A stretch of 32,145 nt of DNA from an uncultured Candidatus Nemicrothrix sp. (GTDB lineage: Bacteria; Actinomycetota; Acidimicrobiia; Acidimicrobiales; Acidimicrobilacustridaceae): positions 1-32,145 of the forward strand of contig CAIPQK010000003.1 in the NCBI GenBank assembly GCA_903867185.1. The letters are read 5' to 3'. A model generated the notes under the pieces. The model did no database searches and was not told where the DNA came from. It saw only the letters and a program-made list of their open reading frames with translations. The translations under genes and the position numbers were made by a program. Below, one piece after another: positions 1 to 18,398 of this stretch. Numbering within the stretch: the first letter of the stretch is position 1; each line of letters starts with the position of its first letter.

Positions 1-313
1 CGATGACAGTCACGCCACCGTCATCGAGCATCTCGGCAACACCGAGATCCAGAACCTCACCGAGTGCTTCAAGTCGATAAACATCGAGATGGTTGAGCTC
101 GAGACGACCCTCGTAGGTATTTACCAACGTGAAAGTCGGCGAGGTAATGAGATCATCGATGCCAAGCGCTGCGCCGAAACCCTGCGTGAACGCCGTCTTA
201 CCCGCGCCAAGATCACCGGCAAGAAGCATGAGGTCACCGGGACGCGCCAATTCGGCAAGCGCCGCGGCGAGTTCCTTCGTCTCTTCCGGCGAGGTAGTGC
301 GAGCAAAAATCAT
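1..313 (-). CDS. tsaE: TsaE, tRNA threonylcarbamoyladenosine (t6A) biosynthesis ATPase, 5' part only
   Basis: The reading frame starts at ATG 313-311 and runs off the window edge, giving 104 codons that begin MIFARTTSPEETKELA. The P-loop is visible as GDLGAGKT around residues 33-40, followed by FTQGFGAALG and the family motif SPTFTLVNTY, then LNHLDVYRL. In the known family, TsaE is the ATPase partner that works with TsaB and TsaD to form t6A37 on ANN-decoding tRNAs in the cytoplasm. Its ATG overlaps the alr stop codon by one base (TAATG), which implies translational coupling. tsaB, rimI and tsaD often follow in actinobacteria but would lie outside this window. The C-terminus is missing only because the window ends. 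Confidence 0.93.
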   Translation of the reverse strand, partial: MIFARTTSPEETKELAAALAELARPGDLMLLAGDLGAGKTAFTQGFGAALGIDDLITSPTFTLVNTYEGRLELNHLDVYRLEALGEVLDLGVAEMLDDGGVTVI

Positions 314-1431
314 TAATCATTTCCTCGCGGATAAAAGCGAGGAACCCGAGGACCAATTCCGCAAACGATTTCATAGGCAATCGTGTCGAGATGCGTTGCG
401 ACGTCTTCGGCGGTAATCGTCGCTTTGCCCTGGGTGCCGATAAGCACCACTTCATCGCCTACTTCGATGTGATCGTCACCGCAATCGACCATCAACTGAT
501 CCATGGTGACAACTCCAACAATCGGGCGCTTCTTCCCACCGATAAGTACCTCGCCACCAACAAGACCAAGACGACGGGGAACGCCATCGGCATAGCCAAT
601 GGGCACAGTGGCCACCGTGGTATCGGCGTCGAAACGATGGCGAAGGCCATACGAAACACCCTCGCCGGCGGTCACTCGTTTCACAAACGAAACTTCAGCT
701 CGCAAGGAAAGCGCGGGCCGAAGGTCGGGAGTTCCCTCTAGGCCAGGCGCGGGGGAAATGCCGTAGACCGCTATTCCGACACGCACGAGGTCGTAGCGGC
801 CACGCGGGTGCGCTATCGCGGTCGCTGAATTCGCCGAGTGGCGGATCGAAGGGAAGATTCCGGCATCACCAAGTTTTGCGAGGACTGCTTCGTACAGATC
901 GAGTTGCTCATCGGTAAACGGGTTATCGGGTTCGTCCGCAACAGCGCAGTGAGTGAAGATGCCTTCAAGGAGAAGTTCTGGGCGCTTCACCACGTCACGC
1001 GCAAGCGCAAGCGCATCAGCTGGCGCAACACCGATGCGGTTCATTCCGGTATCGACCTTTAGATGGACAGGAACAATCTTTCCTTGTTCACGCGCCGCAT
1101 TCGCGAGTAATTCAGCGGCCACGGGCGAGGTGATACACACGCGCAAGTCGTATCGAACGACAGCTGCGAGATCGGCGAGCCGAGGCTGTGAGAGTAAAAG
1201 GATGGGCGCAGTGATCCCCGCTTTTCGGAGCACCGCCGCTTCTTCAATAAGCGCAACCGCGAGCCAATCGGCGCCCGCATCGAGAGCGGCTTCGCTCACA
1301 GCAATCGCACCGTGGCCGTAGCCGTCGGCTTTTACAACCGCGCACACCAAAGACGGGGCCACCAAGGCACGCAGCTCACCCACATTGTGGGCAACCGCTC
1401 CAAGGTCTACCTCAGCGCGTGCGGCGCGCAT
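313..1431 (-). CDS. alr: Alanine racemase (PLP-dependent)
   Basis: This 372-residue protein interconverts L- and D-alanine for peptidoglycan precursors, using PLP in the cytoplasm. The N-terminal signature RAEVDLGAVAHNV is followed by AVVKADGYGHG, with the PLP-binding lysine at K34. The opposing catalytic tyrosine is in GVSYGLRHRF (Y261), and the C-terminal beta domain contains TMDQLMVD. The frame stays open upstream to 1629, but that part overlaps the CBS gene. The ATG at 1431 fits the family N-terminus, lies four bases after the CBS stop, and has AGGA just upstream. The 3' end overlaps tsaE by one base. Length is normal for the family, and all key residues that I can check are present. Confidence 0.95.
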   Translation of the reverse strand: MRAARAEVDLGAVAHNVGELRALVAPSLVCAVVKADGYGHGAIAVSEAALDAGADWLAVALIEEAAVLRKAGITAPILLLSQPRLADLAAVVRYDLRVCITSPVAAELLANAAREQGKIVPVHLKVDTGMNRIGVAPADALALARDVVKRPELLLEGIFTHCAVADEPDNPFTDEQLDLYEAVLAKLGDAGIFPSIRHSANSATAIAHPRGRYDLVRVGIAVYGISPAPGLEGTPDLRPALSLRAEVSFVKRVTAGEGVSYGLRHRFDADTTVATVPIGYADGVPRRLGLVGGEVLIGGKKRPIVGVVTMDQLMVDCGDDHIEVGDEVVLIGTQGKATITAEDVATHLDTIAYEIVCGIGPRVPRFYPRGND

Positions 1432-1435
1432 CGTC

Positions 1436-1954
1436 CTACGCGCCCGCTCCGGCAGAACCGGCGCCAGAAGAGCCATCCTGCGAGTCCCATTCGCGCACGA
1501 TGGCGCGAACAATGTCACCGCGGGCGACGATCCCGATAATCGTTCCGGACTCGTCAAGAACTGGCAGGCGATCAGCACCTTGCTCATGCATGATCGTTGC
1601 CGCGTATTCAACCGTGTCATCGGGAGCAAGTGTCGGTGCCGCGTCGCCCATCACTTCGCCAACGGTTGAGCCAAGTGCCTTTTCAACATCGTGATCGAAC
1701 TTCTTCTTCGACGAAGGCAACTCGATATAGGCACCAAGCAAGGTGATGACAGTGGGAAGGTGAACTCGTGCTTCCTCGACAATGAGATCAGCAGTGGAAA
1801 GCAAGCCAACGATCGAACCGGCGGCATCAACCACTGGGGCACCATCGACATGGCGCGTAAGCATGGCCCGCATGGCATCCATCACATTGTCGCCAGGAGC
1901 AAAGGTCAGGACATCGCTGGCCATTACGTCACGAACAGGCAGTTCTCGCAGCAT
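1436..1954 (-). CDS. CBS-domain pair protein
   Basis: This 172-residue protein consists of two CBS motifs in tandem (about residues 8-60 and 97-152) joined by a short linker; the repeats begin VRDVMASDVLTFAPGD and VGEVMGDAAPTLAPDD. CBS pairs bind adenine nucleotides and usually sense energy state or control a partner protein. No catalytic or membrane domain is attached, so the partner cannot be named. It ends in a Gly/Ser/Ala-rich tail. The ATG at 1954 has GGAGG four bases upstream. The gene lies between the AcpS-Nnr fusion and alr, with only four bases to alr, so it is probably cotranscribed with alr and tsaE. A role linked to alanine racemase would be speculation. Confidence 0.88.
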   Translation of the reverse strand: MLRELPVRDVMASDVLTFAPGDNVMDAMRAMLTRHVDGAPVVDAAGSIVGLLSTADLIVEEARVHLPTVITLLGAYIELPSSKKKFDHDVEKALGSTVGEVMGDAAPTLAPDDTVEYAATIMHEQGADRLPVLDESGTIIGIVARGDIVRAIVREWDSQDGSSGAGSAGAGA

Positions 1955-1986: not shown

Positions 1987-2011
1987 GCGGCCTTTCTGGG
2001 ACTAAGGCCGC
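1987..2011 (-). other. Inverted repeat overlapping the acpS-nnr stop codon
   Basis: GCGGCCTT at 1987-1994 pairs perfectly with AAGGCCGC at 2004-2011 around a 9-base loop. The structure spans the TAG stop of the AcpS-Nnr gene (2004-2002) and sits in the 47-base gap before the CBS gene. No T-run follows on the minus strand, so it is not a classic intrinsic terminator. It may be an attenuator, an RNA-processing hairpin, or chance. Confidence 0.4.
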
Positions 2012-3813
2012 AGAAAGGTCAAGTCGTCAAGCACAGCCGGGAGATGAGCGATCACATCGCCAGCCACCAGACCGCGTCGCCAGCCTAGGGCTCCGGCCCG
2101 TCCGTGGAGGAATGCCCCACCGGCCGCGGCGCGAAGCGGATCAACACCGCACGCAAGTAACGCACCGATGATCCCGGCCAGAACATCGCCTGTCCCCGCC
2201 GTTGCTAAACGCTGATCACCGGCGATTGAGACAAGCACTTCCCCGTCGGGAGCAGCCACCACAGTGGTTCTGCCTTTCAGAAGCACGACGGCACCACTTT
2301 CAGCGGCGAGTGCGCGCGCTTCGGCGATTCGATCTTCTCTTATTGCGTGTCCGGCAAGCCGAGCGAATTCACCGTCATGTGGGGTGAGAACTGTGAACTC
2401 GGAAACAAAGCGCGAAACATCTGTGCCGAGCGCTGTCAGACCATCGGCATCGACCACTGTGGGTAGACCTCGACCTGTTGCAGCGGCAACGACCTGACGA
2501 ATCTGTTCCTTCGTTGCATCACCGATGCCGAGACCGTTTCCGATCACAAGTGAATCGAACCGGCCGAGGTCACCGATCACCTCACTCGACCATCCTTCGG
2601 CAGAGACGTCCATGCGCACTGCTTCTAAAGGCATCTCCGTTGTTGCACCGCCTGGCGTCGAAACGCGCACGTATCCAGCGCCGGTTCGCGCTGCCGCACC
2701 ACTGCTCAATGCTGCGGCTCCACCCATGCCGGGACTGCCAGCCACAACCCACACCGCGCTCTGCCACTTATGGGTATCGATCGCTGGTTCGGGAATCCAC
2801 GAGGCAACCGCCGCGGCACCGACGAGGTGCGCACGAGTACCTCGAGTATCGAGTCCGATGTCAGCCACGGTGAGTGCACCGCTGCACGCAAGTCCATCGC
2901 CAAAGACGTTGCCGGGTTTAAGCGCCGCGAACGTGATCGTTGCGTCGGCCTCCAGCACATCCCCAACACACGACCCAGTCAGCCCGTCGACCCCCGAAGG
3001 AATATCCACCGCGAGCACAAGACACCCGGGCGCAACGATCGGAGCATTCCACTCACCGCGGAATCCAGTGCCAAAGGCAGCGTCGATTACGAGATCGCAA
3101 TCAGGAAGAATCTCTGGAGCATCGGCGGCATCGACCACGGTGACGCGCACGCCGTGGGTTCGCAGCCGTTCAGCGGCGTTACGGCCATCGTTTCCGTTGT
3201 TGCCTTTGCCGGCCAAAACAATGACACGGCGCCCGTAGGCCCCACCCAACATTTCGAGTGCAGCTCGCGCGACCGCACCTCCAGCTCGATCGATCAGCAC
3301 TTCTACCGGTTCCGGAGCCAATCGATCGATCTCATTCATCTCGCTGGGTGTCACGATGGGAACGAGCCCCCCACCGTCGATGGCGCCGGGATGCGGAAGC
3401 GACTGTGCGTCAACGGGACCAAGCGCCGCGACAGAACGTTCGGGGCCAAGCGCTACGACAACGGCTTGAGCAACGATCGCTGAATGACTCAGCGTGAGGC
3501 GCCAATCTTCGATACCCAACTGAGCGGCAAGCGTCGACGCTCGACCACTCAGTGCAACTGATGGTTGACCATCTGCATCGCGACGGACTTCGATGTCATG
3601 CCAATCGACCGCGCCGATACCAACACCCATTGCCTTCAGGACTGCTTCCTTCGCCGCAAAACGAACCGCAAAACGTTCCGTTGGGTCAGTGCGCCGAAGG
3701 GAATACTCGCGTTCTGCTTCCGTGAAAAGTTTCTCGACTAACCCAGCACGACGCTCAAGCACACGACGGAACCGATCAAGATCAACAAGATCGTTTCCGA
3801 TGCCGACGATCAT
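2002..3813 (-). CDS. Triple fusion: holo-ACP synthase (AcpS) + NAD(P)HX epimerase (NnrE) + ADP-dependent NAD(P)HX dehydratase (NnrD)
   Basis: A continuous 603-residue frame carries three enzymes. Residues 1-125 are AcpS, which moves 4'-phosphopantetheine from CoA to acyl carrier protein: MIVGIGNDLVDLDR (Mg ligand D8) and RFAAKEAVLKAMG (E56). Residues about 153-340 are the YjeF_N/NnrE epimerase, with AGKGNNGNDGRN at 201-212 and DAAFGTG. Residues about 345-600 are the NnrD dehydratase, with LTPHDGEFARL and the nucleotide loop ATAGTGDVLAG at 537-547. The last two domains repair hydrated NAD(P)H. NnrE-NnrD fusions are common, but AcpS is normally a separate neighbour. The usual GNNGGDG loop here reads GNNGNDG. 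The start is fixed by the AcpS N-terminus, although no good ribosome site is visible. It follows the GlmS-like gene by 13 bases. Confidence 0.93.
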   Translation of the reverse strand: MIVGIGNDLVDLDRFRRVLERRAGLVEKLFTEAEREYSLRRTDPTERFAVRFAAKEAVLKAMGVGIGAVDWHDIEVRRDADGQPSVALSGRASTLAAQLGIEDWRLTLSHSAIVAQAVVVALGPERSVAALGPVDAQSLPHPGAIDGGGLVPIVTPSEMNEIDRLAPEPVEVLIDRAGGAVARAALEMLGGAYGRRVIVLAGKGNNGNDGRNAAERLRTHGVRVTVVDAADAPEILPDCDLVIDAAFGTGFRGEWNAPIVAPGCLVLAVDIPSGVDGLTGSCVGDVLEADATITFAALKPGNVFGDGLACSGALTVADIGLDTRGTRAHLVGAAAVASWIPEPAIDTHKWQSAVWVVAGSPGMGGAAALSSGAAARTGAGYVRVSTPGGATTEMPLEAVRMDVSAEGWSSEVIGDLGRFDSLVIGNGLGIGDATKEQIRQVVAAATGRGLPTVVDADGLTALGTDVSRFVSEFTVLTPHDGEFARLAGHAIREDRIAEARALAAESGAVVLLKGRTTVVAAPDGEVLVSIAGDQRLATAGTGDVLAGIIGALLACGVDPLRAAAGGAFLHGRAGALGWRRGLVAGDVIAHLPAVLDDLTFLRP

Positions 3814-3826
3814 GCGGAGACCGCAC

Positions 3827-6800
3827 TCATGATCGCCAGTGTTCGGCCAACAGGTTCACAGGTTCGGTCATGAGTTCAATAACCGGAACATCGGTCAGAA
3901 GGTCGTCGCGGAAAACCGGCTCAGTTTCGGTGACCGCATGTTTGATGGCGGCGTAGCGATTCCGATAACCCTGCAAGACCGATCGCAACGCGGTAAGTGA
4001 AAGGTCGTCGTTCAATCGAACATGTAAGAGCGACAAACCGGTCGGCTCACCATCTTTGATCTCAGGAACGATGACAACTGTTCGACCGTCATTACGACCC
4101 TTCGCAACAAGAACGGTGTGTTCAACCGCAACCAATCGCTTTGTTCCTCGTAGTTGCGGATCGTCGGTGGTACGACTTTGCAAATCACGAGCTAACCCAC
4201 CGCGATCGACAATAACCACGCGCGCTTCATCGCGACCTGCAGGGTCGACATGACCCTCAATCGCATAACGGGTATATCCAAGAACCTCGTCGATGAGAGG
4301 TTCGAGTGCTGCAAGCGTGCGCAACGTCGAATAGGTGAGGCGGTCGCGAGAGACACCGGTGCTGAGCACCTCTTTCACCAACGGCACCTGCATGAGCGTT
4401 TCGTCGCTTCGAGAGATGCCTACCGTGACGGTCTTTGCCTGGTGTTTGATCGCGTCGACAGGCCGGGTGAGCTCATCGATCGCCGAAGTGAGCGCTGTCG
4501 CTAAATCTTCAAGGACAACTGCCGGCGTGCCGACCTTGCCATATTCGAGTTGATACGACTCAAGCGGCACGGAACCCAGAGCAAATCTCCAGACGGTGGC
4601 CAATCGCACCGCCGAACTTGCTTCGAGATGTCCGTTGTACTCGCCATTGCGCAACCCATCGAAATACCGGGACGCCTGCGCATTGAGTAAGGGGCGTAGA
4701 CCCGACAACAGCGATTCACCGTCACCGGGAAGTCCAGAAGCAACCGCGTTGTCAATCGCCGCGCGAGCTTCGCGGAGCGGACGAGCCTGCGCATCGATAG
4801 CTAATGCCGCTTCGTAACCGAAGAGATGACCGACCATTGCCGAAAGAATGAATGCGAGACGAGGATGAACCTCGGGTACTGCAATCACCTGAAGGGCAGC
4901 CGAGAATCGTTCCTCACCTTGAGTCGCGATCACGACAGGCGCTGCTTTGTGGGCGCGATAGATAGCGACCTCTTTGGCAACATCATCGGCGGTTGAACCT
5001 TGGAGTCCGGCGGCGCAAACCAGGATCATTGGCTCGGACGAAAGATCGATGTGCTTTTTGTCCTCGGTGCCATCGCAGGCGATTGCTTTGTAGCAAAGCT
5101 CTGAAAGCTTGATTCGAACTTCTTCGGCAGCGATGCGATTCGCCCCATTGCCAACAATTGCCCAGTAGCGACGTGATGGCGCAACGCGCTGGGCCGCTGC
5201 TGCGATGTCGTCACGCAACGCAAACGTACGTTCCATCGCCTCGGGGATCTGACGAAGACCCTCGAGAACAGAAGTGCGTTCCGCTGACGTCGCGCCAATT
5301 GCGTCTGCCAGTGCAGCAGCCAACAAGAAACAGGCAGCGATCTGTGCATAAAACGCTTTGGTTGATGCAACGCTCATCTCTATATCGCGGCCATCGGAGG
5401 TGTACAGAACACCATCGGCTCGATCAGTGAGATCGCTGTTACGGCGATTAACGATCGCGACAACATGTGCTCCGCGAGCGCGGACCAAATCAACTGTGCG
5501 GTTGGTGTCGGTAGTCGTTCCCGATTGGCTCACTGCAACAACCAGGGTGTCAGCCATCGAATCGGTGAGATGGAAGCCGCTGAGTTCGGTCGCCAGAACA
5601 GCTTCCACTCGCACTTCGGTAGTCGGAGCAAATGCAGCGAGACCTTCGAGCAACGCTCGCGCCGCAACTGCAGCTGTTCCCTGTCCGATCGCCAGAATTC
5701 GCTTGATGGAACCATCAGCAAGTGCACCACGGAGCGCCGGTGACAGAACATCGTCGCCGAGGCTCACGTCAGCGCGTCCGTCGATGTCTACCAATTTCCC
5801 GCGAAGTGTTTTGCGGAAAGATCCCGGCGCCTCGCCGATTTCCTTAAGCAGGAAATGAGGTGAATCACCGCGGTCTATGTCACGAGTTGTGATCTGCGCT
5901 TCAGCGAGATCGTCGGCAAAAACTGAAATTGGCGTGCCGTCGTAGGCCCAACGTTCGATTCCATCGCGATCGCCCGCCTTTGAACCAACGAGTCGCACAA
6001 CCTGTCCGCTGCTTGCTGGGTTCGCTGGATCGACAGGGATATCGCCATCGAGCCGGAGATACGAAACCGTTTCTTCGACGACGCCATAGGGCTCGCTCGC
6101 CACGATGAACGAATCCTCGGCCAAGCCGATGTACAACGCCTGCCCACTTCCCCGAAGCGCAAGCAAAAGCGAATCAGCGGCATCGGCAGCACTGGCCGCG
6201 ATCGCCACTGAACCTTCAAGTTCATTCACTGTGAAACGAAAGGCCTCGAGGACACCTGTTCCATCAGCCATCGCACGCGATGTCAGCGTTGGAATCACCT
6301 TGGCATCGGTGGTGATCTCATCTGCGATGTGAAGTGCTTGCGCCGCTTTGAGGTCCGCAAAATTATCGACATCGCCGTTAAGAACTGCCGTGACGTAAGC
6401 CCCACTGTTTTCGTCGGTCTCATCGGAGTTCAATGGATGAGCATTGGGTTGGCTGATGATGCCGACACTCGCCCACCGAGTATGCCCAAGCACAACGGCC
6501 TCGACACTCGATGCCCCAAGGGCATGGCGAAGCAAAGGATCACCGACAATCGCAGCGCGAAGCGCACGAGTGTTGTCACCCAGTTCGCCGATTTCTGCGG
6601 CAGCCTTGTAAACGAAACTCAAATGTCCTTCTGGGGTTCGCACCGCCATTGAACCAAACAATGGATCCGCAGCGCGATCGGCGATTACAGCGCTGATCGC
6701 TGGCGACTGCAGATCAATGCCGTGATTACGAACAAGGAGGTGTAATCCGGCACTGTCGCGCCCACGCACTTCGAGTCGGTCGAGTGCCGAGAGCGCTTGG

Positions 6801-7300
6801 TGAATCGAAAGGGCAACACCTACCGCGGCTGGACTCAATGGCTCGCCTGCAGTCGCGACGCCATCGAGAAGTGCAGCCACTCCATCAGCGGCTCGGAGGC
6901 GATCACGTTGCACCGCCCATACGGCATCTTTGAGATTGACGACTGCCGCGTTGAGGCGCTCAAGTTCGATCCCGACCAGAGCAACGTTCCCAGTCGCTTC
7001 AGAGTCGAGATGGTTCTCGAGTTCGACAACCTGCCGGGCAAGACCATCAATGAGCGTCACGATCGACGCGTGAAGCCCAGGGGCTTCAAGTAAGGCCCGA
7101 ACACCTGCGACCCCGCCAAGCAGTTGATCGGCAGCGGCTACCGCTTTCGCTGCATCGGAAATTGGAGCAACGACAACTGATCGAGACGCAACAACTCCCG
7201 CCAACGACTGTGATGCTGCTTCGAGGCGGTCAACGACCTCGGCCGCTCCTGGTGGCTGGCGCAATGATGGTCGACGAACGACGGCGATAATCCCGCACAT
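3827..7300 (-). CDS. Giant GlmS-like amidotransferase/isomerase (GATase II + two SIS domains) with internal insert and C-terminal extension
   Basis: This is a 1157-residue relative of glucosamine-6-phosphate synthase (GlmS), which is normally about 610 residues and makes GlcN-6-P from Fru-6-P and glutamine. It starts MCGIIAVV, so the Cys2 nucleophile is kept. An unmatched helical, Ala/Val/Leu-rich stretch of about 140-150 residues (about 10-165) precedes LEVRGRDSAGL (177-187). LGHTRWAS (271-278), NAHPL (286-290), LNGD (307-310) and HFLLKEI (482-488) follow. SIS1 (about 530-665) has SQSGTTTDT and SVASTKAF; SIS2 (about 708-835) keeps residues matching E. coli E488 and H504 (E734, H750). By eye, S303 aligns with Ala and K603 with E844. 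Residues about 850-1157 match nothing I recognise. Adjacent glmM supports an amino-sugar role, but catalysis is uncertain. Confidence 0.85.
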   Translation of the reverse strand: MCGIIAVVRRPSLRQPPGAAEVVDRLEAASQSLAGVVASRSVVVAPISDAAKAVAAADQLLGGVAGVRALLEAPGLHASIVTLIDGLARQVVELENHLDSEATGNVALVGIELERLNAAVVNLKDAVWAVQRDRLRAADGVAALLDGVATAGEPLSPAAVGVALSIHQALSALDRLEVRGRDSAGLHLLVRNHGIDLQSPAISAVIADRAADPLFGSMAVRTPEGHLSFVYKAAAEIGELGDNTRALRAAIVGDPLLRHALGASSVEAVVLGHTRWASVGIISQPNAHPLNSDETDENSGAYVTAVLNGDVDNFADLKAAQALHIADEITTDAKVIPTLTSRAMADGTGVLEAFRFTVNELEGSVAIAASAADAADSLLLALRGSGQALYIGLAEDSFIVASEPYGVVEETVSYLRLDGDIPVDPANPASSGQVVRLVGSKAGDRDGIERWAYDGTPISVFADDLAEAQITTRDIDRGDSPHFLLKEIGEAPGSFRKTLRGKLVDIDGRADVSLGDDVLSPALRGALADGSIKRILAIGQGTAAVAARALLEGLAAFAPTTEVRVEAVLATELSGFHLTDSMADTLVVAVSQSGTTTDTNRTVDLVRARGAHVVAIVNRRNSDLTDRADGVLYTSDGRDIEMSVASTKAFYAQIAACFLLAAALADAIGATSAERTSVLEGLRQIPEAMERTFALRDDIAAAAQRVAPSRRYWAIVGNGANRIAAEEVRIKLSELCYKAIACDGTEDKKHIDLSSEPMILVCAAGLQGSTADDVAKEVAIYRAHKAAPVVIATQGEERFSAALQVIAVPEVHPRLAFILSAMVGHLFGYEAALAIDAQARPLREARAAIDNAVASGLPGDGESLLSGLRPLLNAQASRYFDGLRNGEYNGHLEASSAVRLATVWRFALGSVPLESYQLEYGKVGTPAVVLEDLATALTSAIDELTRPVDAIKHQAKTVTVGISRSDETLMQVPLVKEVLSTGVSRDRLTYSTLRTLAALEPLIDEVLGYTRYAIEGHVDPAGRDEARVVIVDRGGLARDLQSRTTDDPQLRGTKRLVAVEHTVLVAKGRNDGRTVVIVPEIKDGEPTGLSLLHVRLNDDLSLTALRSVLQGYRNRYAAIKHAVTETEPVFRDDLLTDVPVIELMTEPVNLLAEHWRS

Positions 7301-7312
7301 GAGGTAGCCAGC

Positions 7313-8638
7313 CTACGCCGAGCAGGCGCTGATGACGGCTGCAGCGAGGTTGTCGGCTGCGGCCTCAGCCTGCTCCATGGTGGGGGCTTCGACCATGACC
7401 CGCACAAGGGGTTCGGTACCGCTGAGGCGAATAAGGACTCGGCCTCGGTCACCCAACGACTGTTCCACCGCGGCAATGTCGTCAGCGATGGCCTCGGCAA
7501 TATCGTCGCGACGATTTTCAAGTCGAACATTTCGCAGCACCTGCGGGAATCGTTCCATGACCGCATCGGTCAAGACCGAAAGGGGTGTTTGGGCACGGCC
7601 TACGAGATCGACCAGTTGGACTCCGGAAAGCACGCCATCTCCAGTCGTCGCCCGGTCAGCAAAAACGATATGGCCAGACTGTTCGCCCCCAAGCGAACTC
7701 GAAGTACGAGCAAGAGCCTCGAGAACGTGCCGATCACCTACGGGAGTCTCGACAACTTCAATTCCTTGTGCGTCCATCGCCAAACGGAATCCAAGATTCG
7801 ACATCACGGTGACAACAACACGATCTCCGGCGAGTTGACCGCGATCACGGAGATCACGTGCAAACAGCGCAATGAGTTGATCACCATCGACGAGTTCACC
7901 GCGTTCATCGACTGCCAGAAGGCGGTCAGCGTCACCGTCGAAAGCAAGCCCAAGTGCAGCGCCATTCGCAACCACTGCTTTTTGAAGATCCCCCGGATGT
8001 GTTGATCCACACGCGTCGTTGATATTGCGACCATCGGGTTGCGCATGCAGTACTTCGACATCGAGACCGAGACCGCGAAAGATCCCTGGAGCAACCGAAG
8101 AGGCCGCACCGTTCGCACAATCGATCACGATGCGCATCGGGGCAACTGCAGAAACTGATGACGCGACGGCATCGCACCATTCGGCGACAGCGTTGGTGTC
8201 TGTCTCTCTACCAACTGCTGATTCTGTTTCACTAACGGATTCCGCTCGCGCAACAACCACATCAAGCGCTCGTTCAAGCGCCGTTTCCAGTTCATCGGAC
8301 AACTTGCGGCCGCCGGCAGCAAAGAACTTGATGCCGTTATCGGACCAAGGGTTATGCGATGCGGAAATCACTGCACCAGGTACTCCGCGTTGCGCACAGA
8401 TCCATGCAACAGCAGGAGTGGGAACAACGCCCATGCTCAGCGGCTGCGCGCCGCCATGAGAAAGTCCAATAGCCAAGGCCGTTTCAAGGCGCTCGCCCGA
8501 TTCACGGGTATCGCGACCGATAACAAATGTGGTGGTTCCAAGAACCTGCGCAGCGGCCTGACCTAACGAAATGACGAGCGCGTCAGTTAACTCAGATGCG
8601 GGTCCGCGTACACCGTCGGTTCCGAATCGGAGAGTCAT
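7313..8638 (-). CDS. glmM: Phosphoglucosamine mutase
   Basis: A 441-residue enzyme that converts GlcN-6-P to GlcN-1-P, the step after GlmS on the way to UDP-GlcNAc for peptidoglycan. It opens with MTLRFGTDGVRG, carries the phosphoserine loop SASHNPWSDNG (active serine S94), the Mg loop DGDADR at 234-239, the sugar-binding GGEQSGH, and the C-terminal phosphate-binding RLSGTEPLVRV. Length is normal (about 445). The ATG at 8638-8636 gives the canonical N-terminus, but no clear ribosome-binding site is seen. It lies 46 bases after rpsI and 12 bases before the GlmS-like gene, so glmM and that gene form a likely transcription and pathway pair. Confidence 0.97.
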   Translation of the reverse strand: MTLRFGTDGVRGPASELTDALVISLGQAAAQVLGTTTFVIGRDTRESGERLETALAIGLSHGGAQPLSMGVVPTPAVAWICAQRGVPGAVISASHNPWSDNGIKFFAAGGRKLSDELETALERALDVVVARAESVSETESAVGRETDTNAVAEWCDAVASSVSAVAPMRIVIDCANGAASSVAPGIFRGLGLDVEVLHAQPDGRNINDACGSTHPGDLQKAVVANGAALGLAFDGDADRLLAVDERGELVDGDQLIALFARDLRDRGQLAGDRVVVTVMSNLGFRLAMDAQGIEVVETPVGDRHVLEALARTSSSLGGEQSGHIVFADRATTGDGVLSGVQLVDLVGRAQTPLSVLTDAVMERFPQVLRNVRLENRRDDIAEAIADDIAAVEQSLGDRGRVLIRLSGTEPLVRVMVEAPTMEQAEAAADNLAAAVISACSA

Positions 8639-12608: not shown

Positions 12609-13007
12609 TCAGACCCTCCGACGCTTGGGTTGACGGCAACCGTTATGCGGGACAGGAGTGACGTCCTTGATTCCCGTTACTTCGATGCCGGCGTTCTGGA
12701 TGCTGCGGATCGCGGTTTCACGACCCGAGCCTGGACCTTTAACGAGCACATCGACCTTGCGGACTCCGTGCTCCATCGCTCGCTTTGCACACTGCTCAGC
12801 AGCCATCTGCGCGGCGAACGGCGTGGACTTACGTGAGCCCTTGAAACCGACATTGCCGGCTGATGCCCACGAAAGAATGTTGCCGTCCTGATCGGAGATG
12901 CTGACGATGGTGTTGTTGAACGAGCTCTTGATGTGAGCGACGCCATGCGTGACGTGCTTGCGTTCCTTCTTGCGGGGCCGACGGCCACCACTTGCTGGCT
13001 TTGCCAT
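12609..13007 (-). CDS. rpsK: 30S ribosomal protein S11 (uS11)
   Basis: A 132-residue platform protein of the small subunit. Diagnostic segments are [66 protein letters not shown] and the C-terminal [16 protein letters not shown]. Its ATG overlaps the rpsM stop by one base (TAATG), so translation is coupled. The N-terminus is slightly longer and more basic than in E. coli, which is common in actinobacteria. Confidence 0.98.
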
Positions 13008-13384
13008 TAGCGCGCCACCTTCTTCTTACCGGCAACGGTCTTCTTGGGACCCTTACGGGTACGGGCGTTGGTGTGAGTGCGCTGACCACGAACGGGAAGA
13101 CCGCGGCGGTGACGCAGACCCTGGTAACAACCGATTTCCATCTTGCGGCGGATGTCTTGATCGACATCGCGACGCAGATCGCCTTCAACCTTCAGGCTGG
13201 CATCGATGTAGCCACGAATCTTGTTGACCTCTTCATCGGTGAGGTCGCGAACTCGAGTACTTGGACTGATCTCGGTGGCTTCACAGATCTGCTTGGCAGT
13301 CGTGTTACCGATTCCGTAGATGTAGGTAAGGCTGATTTCCAGGCGCTTTTCGCGCGGGATATCAACACCGGAGATACGTGCCAT
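13007..13384 (-). CDS. rpsM: 30S ribosomal protein S13 (uS13)
   Basis: A 125-residue head protein that contacts the P-site tRNA and the L5 bridge. It begins [34 protein letters not shown] and continues with [31 protein letters not shown], the conserved basic C-terminus. Length is normal. It starts three bases after the rpmJ stop and overlaps rpsK by one base, so rpmJ-rpsM-rpsK-rpsD form a tight block. Confidence 0.98.
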
Positions 13385-14033: not shown

Positions 14034-17000
14034 TCACGAATCTTTCCGCAATGCAAGGTGAAATGAGGTGAATGTCCGCCCCATGTGATCAAGCACGATA
14101 TGTGGATAGCGGGCATAGGTGACATGGTGGGTCCAGAGCCCACCGAGTCGCTCAACCTGGCGATTTTGGTCTTCAGCAACGTCAAGGAAGGGTGAGCGCG
14201 ACGCCCAGGTCTCGGGGGACACCGAAGCATCGAACGGTTCAATCAACGACCACTTTCGATCGCCGAGGAAGACAGTTCGGATGTCCTCGTCATCAAAGAG
14301 CAGCGCCCCAGGGATTCCCGGGCGATCGCCCTCAAGTCGGAACTCCGTCGAGACAGAAAGAATTCCACCCGGGCGCAGGACGCGCCACGCCTCGTCGAGT
14401 GACTTTGCCACGTCCTCCCGATCACCGAAATGCTCAATGGAACTCGACGAAAAGACACCCGAAACGCTTTCGTCAGGGAGGTCGAGCGCAAGCGCGTTCA
14501 TATCCTCCACTCGCAATCGCGTCGGGTCCCAGATGAACGGCCAGTGGGCTCCAGGATCGACAAGCATCGATGAATCAGCGCTTTCCTCCCAGCCCTCCTC
14601 TAGGTAGAGATCGGTGGCGATGACCTCTTGCGCGAATCGCGTCAGATAGAACAACGTCGGTTCATTTCCTGCACCGATTCCAAGGAGACGATGGGTTCCA
14701 TCAAGTAACCCTGCCTCGCGGAACGAAAGAACCGCCATCGCAACTTCCCAGTACTTTCGATACTCGCGAGCAGTCGGAAACTCGGGACCAAAACGCAGCA
14801 GTTCATGTGCAAACACATCACGAATCACATCGCGAAGTCGCGGTGTCACAAAATCCTCGACCTCACAAATTTTCGAAAGGGAGAGGTTCCGTTCAAGGAG
14901 TAACGGTTTCTCAATCACTAGTTCCGAATCACGATCTTGAACACGAATCGCGGGAAGATCTTCGCAGAGCCACTCGGCGACTCTCCGAAATTTTTCATCG
15001 AAGCGAAGTGGATCGACGTTCGAGCGATAGCGATCGGTTTGGATCGCAACGAATGTGGATCGATTCGCAACTGTGGATCGGAGCGCTCGCAACGCGTCGA
15101 TCGGATCGTTCGGTGAGAAATTCCAGGGTCCGTTACCGAGCAATTCATCGTGCGCCGGAATCGAAGACAACACGACTGGGGTTCCGCGTTCAAGGGACTC
15201 AATAACCGAGAGTGAAAAACCTTCATGAAGCGACGGGACGATGACCGCTTCAGCGTTCCGAAGTATTGAATCGAAATCGTCATCCGGGATCTGACCTCCG
15301 ATTCGAAAGCGATTCCGTTCAAGACCTAGCTCTAGCGCCAGCGTCGTCAACGCGACCCGATGCTCATCGGACATCGAGGCAATGACGACGACATCGAGAT
15401 CGGTTCGATCCAGAACAGCAAACGGAACTGCTGCCGCCACACCCACAAGGAGATTTTTGTGCGGGAGCCCATTTCCCACAACGACAATGTGTGATCGTCG
15501 AGTCGTTCGTGATTCTCTCCCTGCTTGCGTCACTGATTCGCCCAGCCGTGTCAATCCCGGCGCACATCCCGTTTCTACGATGCACTCGGGGCGAACCCCT
15601 AACTCGATTGCCTCGGCAGTCGACGACGCGGAAAGAGTAAGAAGCTTCCCGTACCCCCCGATGCATTCAAGACCGAATTGATACTCCAGAAACTCAGCAT
15701 CTGTTCTCAAAAAACTGTGTGGGTAGGTTCCCATAATCGAATCAAGCCACACTCCAGCGCTTCGCACCGATGGCGACCGCGATAACCGCACCTGTAGATC
15801 GGTTTTTCGGTGGATAAACGGAGCCAACTGAAGAAACGATCCAACGCGTCGGCGATGGTGCGAACCCCATGTGCCATCGAATCGCCCAACAAACTCTTCC
15901 GGAAGCGGCGGCAAGTCCATCGATGCAAGTTGCCAAACTTCGACATCATCAGGAACTGCATCAAGAACAATCCTGAGGGCATTTCGAGCATGAGTGCGTG
16001 TGCCGCACATGATGGCCACCTGGGCACCGCGTGTGTCGATAAGAAGCACGTTCGGCCAATCCGCATCTCCTGCAGGATCTGTTTCTATCGAACGAAACCG
16101 TCGTAACTCGCTTAGTCCGGCCGAGTCAGCTTCAGATTCCGAAAGGGATTCGATGAGCTCCCATTCGCGATCGTCAAGCAGGCGCGGAGCGGTTATGCGT
16201 CTGGATCGAAGTTGACCGGTTTCCCCCAAGGCTCTTTGATCAACATCCAACTGTTTTGAAACGGTCGCTCTCCCCAAACCGTCAGTCGTCACAAGCCGCT
16301 CAAAGGGACGACCCGGAGCGGTGAACTCTGCAACCGCCGAAACAACATTCGAAGGACTACTCAATTGTTTGTGCCGTAGCCGCCTGAGGCGGTTCGCCAA
16401 GGGAAGGACCAGGACTCGAAACGGACGGGCAGGCGCCACGATGACCCGGCCGATTCGGTACGCCCAACTCATCTCTAATTCCCAGACACGTTGCTGGTTC
16501 AAGATTGCCCGATGTTGTTCCGCGGCCAACAGAGCATCGCGCTGAATCAGTTGGGCCTGGCTTCGCTGCAGAGCAACTTCGACTTCCTTTGCGTGCTTGT
16601 CTCGCTCGAGGATTGTCAACGTCATCTGCGCTTGGGCACCACCACCTAGTTCAGAAATGCCTGCTTTCTTAAGTGCTTCAAGATAGGTCCATTGGGGAAA
16701 ACCATCGATCGGAGAAACCGGTTGCGCAAGACGTTGCCGCAGATCAGGTCGATCTGCTCTCGAGTAGAAACGATTGATCCCATCATCGATCGCGAATTCG
16801 TACCCCGCCTCAAGAACCATTGGTTCCCAACTCGCGAAGGACGGTGCCCACGTCGACGGGTCTATTGATTCAATGACCAACACCAGAGGGCGGAAGCGAT
16901 CCCAATCATTGGAGGAAACAACTTCAATTTCGGCACCCTCAACGTCAATCTTTAAAAACCCAATCTCTCGGTTTTCCAAGTAGCGGTCGAAAAGCTCCTT

Positions 17001-17423
17001 AAGAGTGAGTGATTCCACAACAACAATTTCTCTGCGCTCATCAAGTGCGCCGGGAAATACCTCAGACTCGTTATAGATCGAGGAAAGATCGAGATGGGGA
17101 TACCGCAGGGTGAATTGAATCTCTCCCGAACGACGTGAAATGGCAACCTGCAAGGTCAGATCGCGCGGACGCTCGCTCATCAGAACCGAAGCATTCGGGC
17201 CTGGTTCAACATTGATTCCGTTCCAACCTCTGTCTGAGAAGAGTCGGGTCACCGAGAAATTCGTCGGATGCCCGGCACCAATATCGACATAGATGCAGTC
17301 GGTCTCGTTTGACAGCGCTTTCCAGAGGCGAACGTCTTCGAAGTTCTGCGCATAAGAAATCGGTGCGACCGGAATGGGCTCCTCACGCGCAAAAAACGGC
17401 TCGACCATTCTTTTTCTCCGCAT
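14034..17423 (-). CDS. Three-domain FkbM methyltransferase / GT4 glycosyltransferase / class I SAM methyltransferase
   Basis: About 1129 residues from ATG 17423 (GAGGA five bases upstream). GTG 17507 and ATGs at 17471, 17453 and 17408 are alternatives. Domain 1 (about 22-220) is an FkbM-type methyltransferase: SYAQNFEDVRLWKAL, YVDIGAGHPTNF and FLKIDVEGAEIEVV. A charged, Gln-rich probable coiled coil follows (about 269-317). Domain 2 (about 460-815) is a GT4/GT-B glycosyltransferase with VVVGNGLPHKNLLVGV and the sugar-nucleotide E-x7-E motif in HEGFSLSVIESLERGTPVV. Domain 3 (about 880-1060) is a Methyltransf_11-like fold with LLGIGAGNEP, SSIEHFGD and LRPGGILSVSTEF. No signal peptide or membrane segment is evident. 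It probably builds and methylates a surface glycan; the acceptor is unknown. Its place between map and infA is abnormal. Confidence 0.85.
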   Translation of the reverse strand: MRRKRMVEPFFAREEPIPVAPISYAQNFEDVRLWKALSNETDCIYVDIGAGHPTNFSVTRLFSDRGWNGINVEPGPNASVLMSERPRDLTLQVAISRRSGEIQFTLRYPHLDLSSIYNESEVFPGALDERREIVVVESLTLKELFDRYLENREIGFLKIDVEGAEIEVVSSNDWDRFRPLVLVIESIDPSTWAPSFASWEPMVLEAGYEFAIDDGINRFYSRADRPDLRQRLAQPVSPIDGFPQWTYLEALKKAGISELGGGAQAQMTLTILERDKHAKEVEVALQRSQAQLIQRDALLAAEQHRAILNQQRVWELEMSWAYRIGRVIVAPARPFRVLVLPLANRLRRLRHKQLSSPSNVVSAVAEFTAPGRPFERLVTTDGLGRATVSKQLDVDQRALGETGQLRSRRITAPRLLDDREWELIESLSESEADSAGLSELRRFRSIETDPAGDADWPNVLLIDTRGAQVAIMCGTRTHARNALRIVLDAVPDDVEVWQLASMDLPPLPEEFVGRFDGTWGSHHRRRVGSFLQLAPFIHRKTDLQVRLSRSPSVRSAGVWLDSIMGTYPHSFLRTDAEFLEYQFGLECIGGYGKLLTLSASSTAEAIELGVRPECIVETGCAPGLTRLGESVTQAGRESRTTRRSHIVVVGNGLPHKNLLVGVAAAVPFAVLDRTDLDVVVIASMSDEHRVALTTLALELGLERNRFRIGGQIPDDDFDSILRNAEAVIVPSLHEGFSLSVIESLERGTPVVLSSIPAHDELLGNGPWNFSPNDPIDALRALRSTVANRSTFVAIQTDRYRSNVDPLRFDEKFRRVAEWLCEDLPAIRVQDRDSELVIEKPLLLERNLSLSKICEVEDFVTPRLRDVIRDVFAHELLRFGPEFPTAREYRKYWEVAMAVLSFREAGLLDGTHRLLGIGAGNEPTLFYLTRFAQEVIATDLYLEEGWEESADSSMLVDPGAHWPFIWDPTRLRVEDMNALALDLPDESVSGVFSSSSIEHFGDREDVAKSLDEAWRVLRPGGILSVSTEFRLEGDRPGIPGALLFDDEDIRTVFLGDRKWSLIEPFDASVSPETWASRSPFLDVAEDQNRQVERLGGLWTHHVTYARYPHIVLDHMGRTFTSFHLALRKDS

Positions 17424-17585
17424 GAGTTTCCTCAATCGCCTTTCCCGCCGCATGACCGACTGTAGTCCCATGCAAACAAAAGACGGACCGTTTCCCTTAG
17501 AGCCCACGCGAAGTCTGCAACTTCGAACATTTCACCCAGTGTCACGCCGGAAACTCGGGAGCATCGTTCTCTTCCCCCATTTTTT

Positions 17586-17654: not shown

Positions 17655-18398
17655 TCAGGCGATCGTCAAAATTTCGGGCCCATTGGGGCCGATGGCGATC
17701 GTGTGTTCAAAATGAGCCGCCCAAGACCCATCCGCCGAAAGCACTGTCCAGCCATCCTCGGTAAGGAAAGTCTCGGCCTCGCCGATGGTGACCATGGGCT
17801 CTACCGCCAGAGTCATGCCCGTCTTCAACGTTCCGCCCTTACCTGCCACTCCGTAGTTGGGCACCTCGGGGGCCTCGTGCATCCGACGGCCGATTCCGTG
17901 GCCGACATAATCACGAACGACAGAGAAGCCCGCCGCCTCGACCACGGCCTGCACCGCAGCGCCAATGTCGCCCAGGGTGTTGCCATCGACCATCGCAGCA
18001 ATGCCCGCGGCAAGAGAGGCCTCGGTGACTGAGATCAGTCTCGAGGCCTCGGCGGAAATCGTGCCAACGCCGGCGGTGAACGCCGCGTCGCCATGCCACC
18101 CCTCGACCACCGCGCCACAGTCGACCGAAATGATGTCGCCCTCGTTCAGAACGATTGGTCCGGGGATGCCGTGGACGATCACATCGTTCGGCGACGCACA
18201 GATCACCGCTGGGAAGCCGTGGTAGCCGAGGAAGTTCGACGACGCTCCCCTGCTGTCGATCACTTTGCGGCCAATTGCGTCGAGATCGGAAGTTGTCACG
18301 CCAGGACGAATCGCGGCGCGAATTTTTTCGTGCATTTCCGCAACCACGCGACCAGCAGCACGCATGTGGCGAAGCTCATCGTTCGTCCGAGCTTTCAT
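17655..18398 (-). CDS. map: Methionine aminopeptidase, type I
   Basis: A 247-residue metalloprotease that removes the initiator methionine from nascent proteins. All five metal ligands are present with E. coli-like spacing: D93 and D104 (VDCGAVVEGWHGDAAFT), H167 (YVGHGIGRRMHEAP), E200 (LAVEPMV) and E231 (HFEHTIAI). The substrate-site histidine is in IVHGIP (H76). There is no N-terminal SH3-binding or zinc-finger extension, so it is the short form. It follows adk by seven bases in the usual secY-adk-map order. Confidence 0.97.
   Translation of the reverse strand: MKARTNDELRHMRAAGRVVAEMHEKIRAAIRPGVTTSDLDAIGRKVIDSRGASSNFLGYHGFPAVICASPNDVIVHGIPGPIVLNEGDIISVDCGAVVEGWHGDAAFTAGVGTISAEASRLISVTEASLAAGIAAMVDGNTLGDIGAAVQAVVEAAGFSVVRDYVGHGIGRRMHEAPEVPNYGVAGKGGTLKTGMTLAVEPMVTIGEAETFLTEDGWTVLSADGSWAAHFEHTIAIGPNGPEILTIA

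Follow-up and report, generated by a model that had tools for sequence, protein, structure and literature searches.

The window analyzed here, a stretch of 32,145 nucleotides from an uncultured Candidatus Nemicrothrix sp. of the class Acidimicrobiia (assembly GCA_903867185.1, contig CAIPQK010000003.1), contains a gene for a GlmS-like protein of 1157 amino acids, hereafter called the giant. GlmS, the glucosamine-6-phosphate (GlcN6P) synthase, is an essential enzyme that produces the first amino sugar for the cell wall and provides the entry step to peptidoglycan and UDP-N-acetylglucosamine (UDP-GlcNAc). We conclude, with a probability of about 0.87, that the giant is the working GlcN6P synthase of this organism, an active, divergent GlmS that follows the usual chemistry and carries its C-tail inside the chain. 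A first-pass annotation of the sequence had considered either a divergent GlmS with a compensating mechanism or a protein with a different amidotransfer or regulatory role. Its description as a divergent GlmS is strongly supported by our results: the giant is the sole copy, lies in the gene slot that canonical GlmS otherwise occupies, excludes the canonical form and shows a whole-length structural match to known enzymes.

The giant is the only GlmS candidate in its genome. A second, canonical glmS, for which the first-pass annotation had suggested a search, is not present there: the only other match to the GlmS model TIGR01135 was identified as PurF. Likewise, no NagB or NagA was found over cut-off in this genome, the only PF01182 match being 6-phosphogluconolactonase (Pgl), which leaves the giant as its sole source of GlcN6P. 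A GlmU-like gene is present; it scores under the TIGR01173 cut-off and is located upstream of a gene reading as prs.

We compared 148 genomes from the order with a completeness of at least 90%: 98 have the giant, 49 have a canonical GlmS above cut-off and a single one (G070) has neither. Both forms also share a gene slot. As stated by the first-pass annotation, the giant directly follows glmM, which encodes the next enzyme of the pathway and ends 12 nt before the open reading frame (ORF) of the giant. On the other side it is flanked by an acpS-nnr fusion and alr. Of 30 loci with a canonical glmS from this order, 22 have the gene flanked by glmM and, at its other end, by acpS/nnr or alr; 28 have one or more of these markers. 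The case that the giant acts as GlmS rests most strongly on mutual exclusion together with the shared slot.

Some genomes show individual arrangements. G070 is 98% complete, and four genomes of the same genus (G107, G135, G160 and G181) have the giant, so that an assembly gap is probable. Genome G162 carries an intact giant in the glmM slot and, outside the slot, a canonical glmS split by a frameshift (L164, C29), possibly due to recent acquisition and decay or to a sequencing error. In family f112, outside the class (L156-L158 and L214), three members harbor a giant without glmM or acpS as neighbors and no canonical GlmS, which may reflect relocation or horizontal acquisition.

The protein belongs to a widespread family with a size of about 1100-1300 amino acids. 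Matches were found in 58 of 61 related genomes, most of them giant relatives with 52-97% identity, and a species-level genome scan added 80 further loci, mostly full-length. By record label, nearly all scanned loci are actinobacterial or from Acidimicrobiia, a few labels being evidently wrong. More distant members, with 45-58% identity, were found in further orders of the class and in a small number of lineages elsewhere in the phylum. Compared with canonical GlmS from its own order, the giant is 31-35% identical. In a tree of the isomerase core, the giants group together as a single clade (100/100), set apart by a very long stem from all canonical GlmS sampled. They are a monophyletic, deep and previously unnamed subfamily that has replaced canonical GlmS in much of the Acidimicrobiia. 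Neither Pfam nor NCBIfam holds a model for the family as a whole or for its C-terminal domain, and searches of open-licence papers found no report of a GlmS built like the giant, which is weak evidence of novelty. The size given by the first-pass annotation is correct. The ORF is intact, the plus strand of 3827-7300 contains many stops, and a frameshift or gene-fusion artefact can be rejected because about 100 independent genomes carry the same intact architecture.

Its domain order is that of GlmS and of the eukaryotic GFAT enzymes: a single chain begins with an N-terminal cysteine-dependent glutaminase (GATase_6) and continues with two SIS domains. Pfam searches identified GATase_6 at residues 267-403 (37.2 bits, cut-off 27) and SIS at 533-662 (73 bits, above cut-off), and nothing else of note. 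The NCBIfam GlmS models TIGR01135 (228.6 bits) and PRK00331 (248.8 bits) cover residues 266-835, both well under their cut-offs. Conservation was evaluated in an alignment of 84 giants, with mean values of 0.62-0.77 for the glutaminase core, 0.72 for the SIS core and 0.65 for the C-terminal part (901-1157). The glutaminase residues noted in the first-pass annotation, namely Cys2, HTRW (273-276), NG (308-309) and the aspartate D332, are invariant in this alignment.

The catalytic roles of K603, E488, H504 and S303 are established in E. coli GlmS, with K603 acting as the ring-opening Schiff-base lysine. The counterparts of K485, E488, K503 and H504 in the giant, K731, E734, K749 and H750, are all invariant, and the 16-residue spacing of E734 and H750, already recognized in the first pass, is retained. 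The proposed change of S303 to alanine stands insofar as the site is not serine: an invariant IGQGTA has GTA in place of GTS, with A543 in 84/84 giants. The exact register depends on the alignment, phmmer placing G541 opposite S303. Among the catalytic residues compared, S303 is the only one replaced; all others are invariant.

The first-pass annotation had also proposed that K603 is replaced by E844. This proved to be an artefact of the ungapped alignment: E844 is not conserved, with glutamate in 69 of 84 giants and Q, A, S, V or F in the remainder. The GlmS C-tail is found 112 residues further downstream as RPVDAIKHQAKTVTVG. Canonical GlmS proteins of the Acidimicrobiia end in (D)RPRNLAKTVTVE; the corresponding stretch of the giants reads LTRPVDAIKHQAKTVTVGISR, in which K956 and all six letters of AKTVTV are invariant. 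K956 is also invariant in a divergent set of 35. The motif AK[ST]VTV occurs exactly once in 98/98 giants, compared with a chance expectation of 0.00024 per protein. The tail closes the chain in 41 canonical actinobacterial GlmS, whereas in the giant about 197 residues follow it.

These positions agree with the predicted structure. An AlphaFold2 model of the whole giant (predicted local distance difference test [pLDDT] 85.9, predicted template-modelling score [pTM] 0.78) was compared with known structures by VIA-align 2. The best match was human GFAT-1 (6r4i_B; Z 39.9, root-mean-square deviation [rmsd] 4.8, 601 aligned, model 2..960 against 2..679), and E. coli GlmS (1jxa_A) gave Z 39.1, rmsd 5.3 and 594 aligned residues (model 2..962 against 1..608). 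The halves matched individually as well: 1moq (Z 37.3, rmsd 2.7, 356 aligned, model 475..962 against 243..608) and 2puv_C (Z 39.0, rmsd 2.4, 340 aligned, model 479..837) for the isomerase part and its core, and 1xff_B (Z 29.1, rmsd 1.8, 234 aligned, model 2..471) for the glutaminase domain. Further chain ends fall at the same place, residue 601 of 2vf4 and 602 of 3ooj_A opposite model residue 955, and 605 of 2j6h opposite 960. The known enzymes thus end at model residues 955-962 and not at E844, which puts the K603 counterpart at 956-958, provisionally in view of the low model confidence at that loop. It follows that the C-tail of the giant is displaced, not lost: it lies internally, preceded by a helical insert (838-943) and followed by a C-terminal domain (962-1157). 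We infer that K956 is the Schiff-base lysine and the counterpart of K603. A different lysine at this position, named in the first pass as a finding that would speak against its own reading, is thus indicated by the motif, its conservation and the range of the structural alignments, the model being of low confidence there. Since K956 is kept in the displaced C-tail, neither a compensating mechanism nor a different amidotransfer reaction is needed. Low-confidence loops are found at 952-963 (the C-tail, pLDDT <50) and at 279-283 (the Q-loop). As both elements are mobile in known GlmS and GFAT (PMC8041777, PMC7948480), we read the low values as mobility.

Several observations weigh against the assignment of the giant as GlmS. 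It misses the curated TIGR01135 cut-off of 418.05 bits, as do all intact giants listed (about 180-237 bits). At the place of the sugar-binding S303 it has G541-T542-A543. The branch from the giants to canonical GlmS measures 5.86 changes per column. The model is weakest exactly at the C-tail, where the structural register shifts by 1-2 residues, and a hidden Markov model (HMM) of canonical C-tails scored only 0.8 bits on the tail of the giant, no better than shuffles. The best site of this HMM is 955-960 or the equivalent in nearly every giant, although its score is weak; the profile of so short a tail is too weak to prove homology alone. Finally, genome G302 (5% contamination) contains both forms, the canonical glmS being located beside glmM (L159/L213, C313). 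The giant of G302 is found on a separate contig (L189, C155) lacking the usual neighbors, and this double presence is possibly due to contamination or a second copy.

The long branch and the low TIGR01135 score imply that specificity could have shifted. Together with the unconserved S303 and the glutamate opposite K603 in the by-eye alignment, they would fit a paralogue of GlmS in which K603 has been lost and which now catalyses another amidotransfer or a deamination, or has a purely regulatory role. We regard this as very unlikely: no other GlmS is present in the genome of the window or in 97 of the 98 giant-bearing genomes, the gene slot is identical to that of canonical GlmS, and an invariant lysine lies inside the C-tail motif. 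Alternatively, an active GlmS could use K748, K776 or K952 as the Schiff-base lysine, with AKTVTV at 955-960 being coincidental. K748 and K776 are invariant, and both the uncertain model at 952-963 and the weak HMM score of the tail would be compatible with this idea. It is nevertheless improbable given the single exact AK[ST]VTV in every giant, its low chance expectation and the termination of the structural alignments at this site; K952, moreover, is replaced by arginine in 4/35 of the divergent set. We therefore retain the giant as an active GlmS and strongly infer that it is catalytically active. Its architecture and gene context mark it as a GlmS; its score leaves it outside TIGR01135, and its C-tail is not C-terminal.

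For this enzyme we propose the following mechanism. The N-terminal half would hydrolyse glutamine by means of Cys2, and the ammonia would reach the double-SIS half by way of the interdomain channel. There, fructose-6-phosphate, bound via the phosphate loop SQSGTT, would be opened and isomerised by K731, E734 and H750, while K956, brought in by the mobile C-tail AKTVTV, would form an imine with it. The tail itself would be held on both sides, by the helical insert of about 105 residues and by a PAS/GAF-like domain of about 195 residues. This domain may sense a metabolite and control the movement of the C-tail and hence ammonia channelling.

Three segments have been added to the GlmS core. The extra residues noted in the first pass ahead of LEVRGRDSAGL form a real helical insert (residues ~12-165), which shows little conservation (mean identity of 0.37 across residues 13-165). 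The second segment links the last SIS helix to the C-tail and comprises helices at 840-854, 861-884, 894-907, 913-920 and 926-949 in the AlphaFold2 model. From about residue 840 on, no Pfam family was found consistently, in line with the first-pass statement that the C-terminal part belongs to no known family. Modelled alone, the C-terminal domain reached a pLDDT of 95.0 and a pTM of 0.90. Its best structural match is 7jsr_A (Z 8.7, rmsd 4.6, 160/196 aligned, chain 174..358), followed by GAF and PAS domains with Z ≤7.0 across only ~70-105 residues; Foldseek matches were marginal (best E 0.001). 7JSR is the large glutamate dehydrogenase (L-GDH) of M. smegmatis; the match falls inside its N-terminal segment, which has been described as ACT-like plus PAS-type sensor domains, the latter proposed as an allosteric sensor (PMC8175468). 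The two proteins resemble each other in that a sensor-like segment is attached to an enzyme of nitrogen metabolism, but identity is only 12%. Homology to the L-GDH segment gained no support: profile-profile comparison (hhalign) of the domain with 20 actinobacterial L-GDHs gave a probability of only 0.1-1.2%, and no profile match to a Pfam PAS or GAF family or to the L-GDH N-terminal segment was found. An L-GDH was not found in the window's own genome. Because the structural matches are modest and the profile comparison gives no support, we call the domain PAS/GAF-like by predicted fold only. It was not seen as a stand-alone protein elsewhere in the phylum; every match lay within a giant frame, except for one marginal match (G502, 20.8 bits) and for frames truncated at contig ends or by frameshifts.

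The regulatory role raised in the first pass can be kept in altered form: the extra domains look regulatory. The added segments probably exert allosteric control over the mobile C-tail, although any such regulation is speculative, and UDP-GlcNAc feedback or a nitrogen-status signal are guesses for the ligand. The segments may instead be structural or oligomeric scaffolding without regulation, as the helical, poorly conserved N-terminal insert and the modest PAS/GAF matches would suggest; we see this as a substantial possibility, though short of even odds. The conservation of the C-terminal part, including the invariant charged residues R1043, K1054, D1071, R1073, R1115 and E1125, and the direct attachment of this domain to the mobile C-tail speak against it. 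The arrangement suggests a built-in control absent from ordinary GlmS. Only tentatively, at somewhat below even chance, do we extend this to the idea that GlmS was replaced throughout the class by a form that senses a metabolite, its sensor-like domain being fused to the C-tail and gating the movement of the tail and thereby ammonia channelling and amino-sugar synthesis. If so, the entry to cell-wall precursors would be under allosteric control by the protein itself.

With canonical GlmS (E. coli 1JXA/2J6H; TIGR01135), the giant shares the order of glutaminase and double-SIS domains, the glutaminase residues, SQSG and VASTKAF, the equivalents of K485, E488, K503 and H504, the lysine-containing AK[ST]VTV tail and the slot after glmM. 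It differs in length (1157 instead of about 610 amino acids, with three added segments), in its score below the curated cut-off, in lacking serine at S303 and in its internal C-tail. In all characterised GlmS and GFAT enzymes known to us, catalytic residues lie on the mobile C-terminus, which also shuts the ammonia channel. A class of actinobacteria that is abundant in fresh water, the sea and soil, though little studied, would use a GlmS that keeps this lysine on a C-tail captive between two added modules. This amounts to a natural experiment on whether channelling depends on a free C-terminus, and it provides a possible point of allosteric control that can be tested. Eukaryotic GFAT-1/GFAT-2 are comparable in design, being forms of GlmS that likewise carry an insert. 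UDP-GlcNAc inhibits GFAT-1 by feedback (PMC8041777). The GFAT insert of ~46 residues (211-256 of hGFAT2; PMC7948480), however, is located at other places than the inserts of the giant, and in GFAT the C-tail (670-681) forms the end of the chain (PMC8041777). As giant genomes do not reach the TIGR01135 cut-off, false calls of a missing glmS could arise in genome-scale reconstructions.

Table 1. Features of the giant and its neighbors in the window. Residue r of the giant corresponds to bases 7301-3r to 7303-3r of the minus strand.
Feature	Position	Strand	Remarks
Giant GlmS, 1157 aa	3827..7300	minus	intact ORF
Cys2, N-terminal glutaminase nucleophile	7295..7297	minus	invariant in 84 relatives
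Residues ~12-165, helical insert of the glutaminase domain, after strand 1 and ahead of LEVRGRDSAGL	6806..7267	minus	
Residues 166-420, remaining glutaminase domain (HTRW 273-276, NG 308-309, D332)	6041..6805	minus	GATase_6; 1xff_B alignment
Residues 476-837, double-SIS isomerase core (SQSGTT 591-596, VASTKAF, K731, E734, K749, H750)	4790..5875	minus	
Residues 838-943, helical insert (~105 residues), last SIS helix to C-tail	4472..4789	minus	
E844, earlier proposed K603 replacement	4769..4771	minus	69/84 relatives; inside helix 840-854
Residues 945-961 TRPVDAIKHQAKTVTVG, internalised C-tail	4418..4468	minus	counterpart of canonical C-terminal (D)RPRNLAKTVTVE
K956, proposed K603 equivalent (Schiff-base lysine)	4433..4435	minus	invariant in 84 + divergent set of 35
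Residues 962-1157 (~195 residues), C-terminal PAS/GAF-like alpha/beta domain	3830..4417	minus	
glmM, next pathway enzyme, directly upstream of the giant	7313..8638	minus	TIGR01455 482.3 bits, cut-off 447.55
acpS-nnrE/nnrD fusion, downstream neighbor, slot marker in canonical genomes	2002..3813	minus	
alr (alanine racemase), next downstream slot marker	313..1629	minus	TIGR00492 354 bits

No glmS ribozyme or other RNA family was found in the window at the gathering threshold. The downstream neighbor joins AcpS (holo-ACP synthase) and YjeF (NAD(P)H-hydrate epimerase/dehydratase) in one ORF of 603 amino acids, and this stretch is kept in relatives, for example L037. A second ORF of exactly 1157 amino acids is located at 14034-17507 (minus strand), encoding an FkbM methyltransferase, a GT4 glycosyltransferase and a second methyltransferase domain; it is placed among ribosomal-protein genes, with rpsM (13007-13384) on one side and map (17655-18398) on the other.

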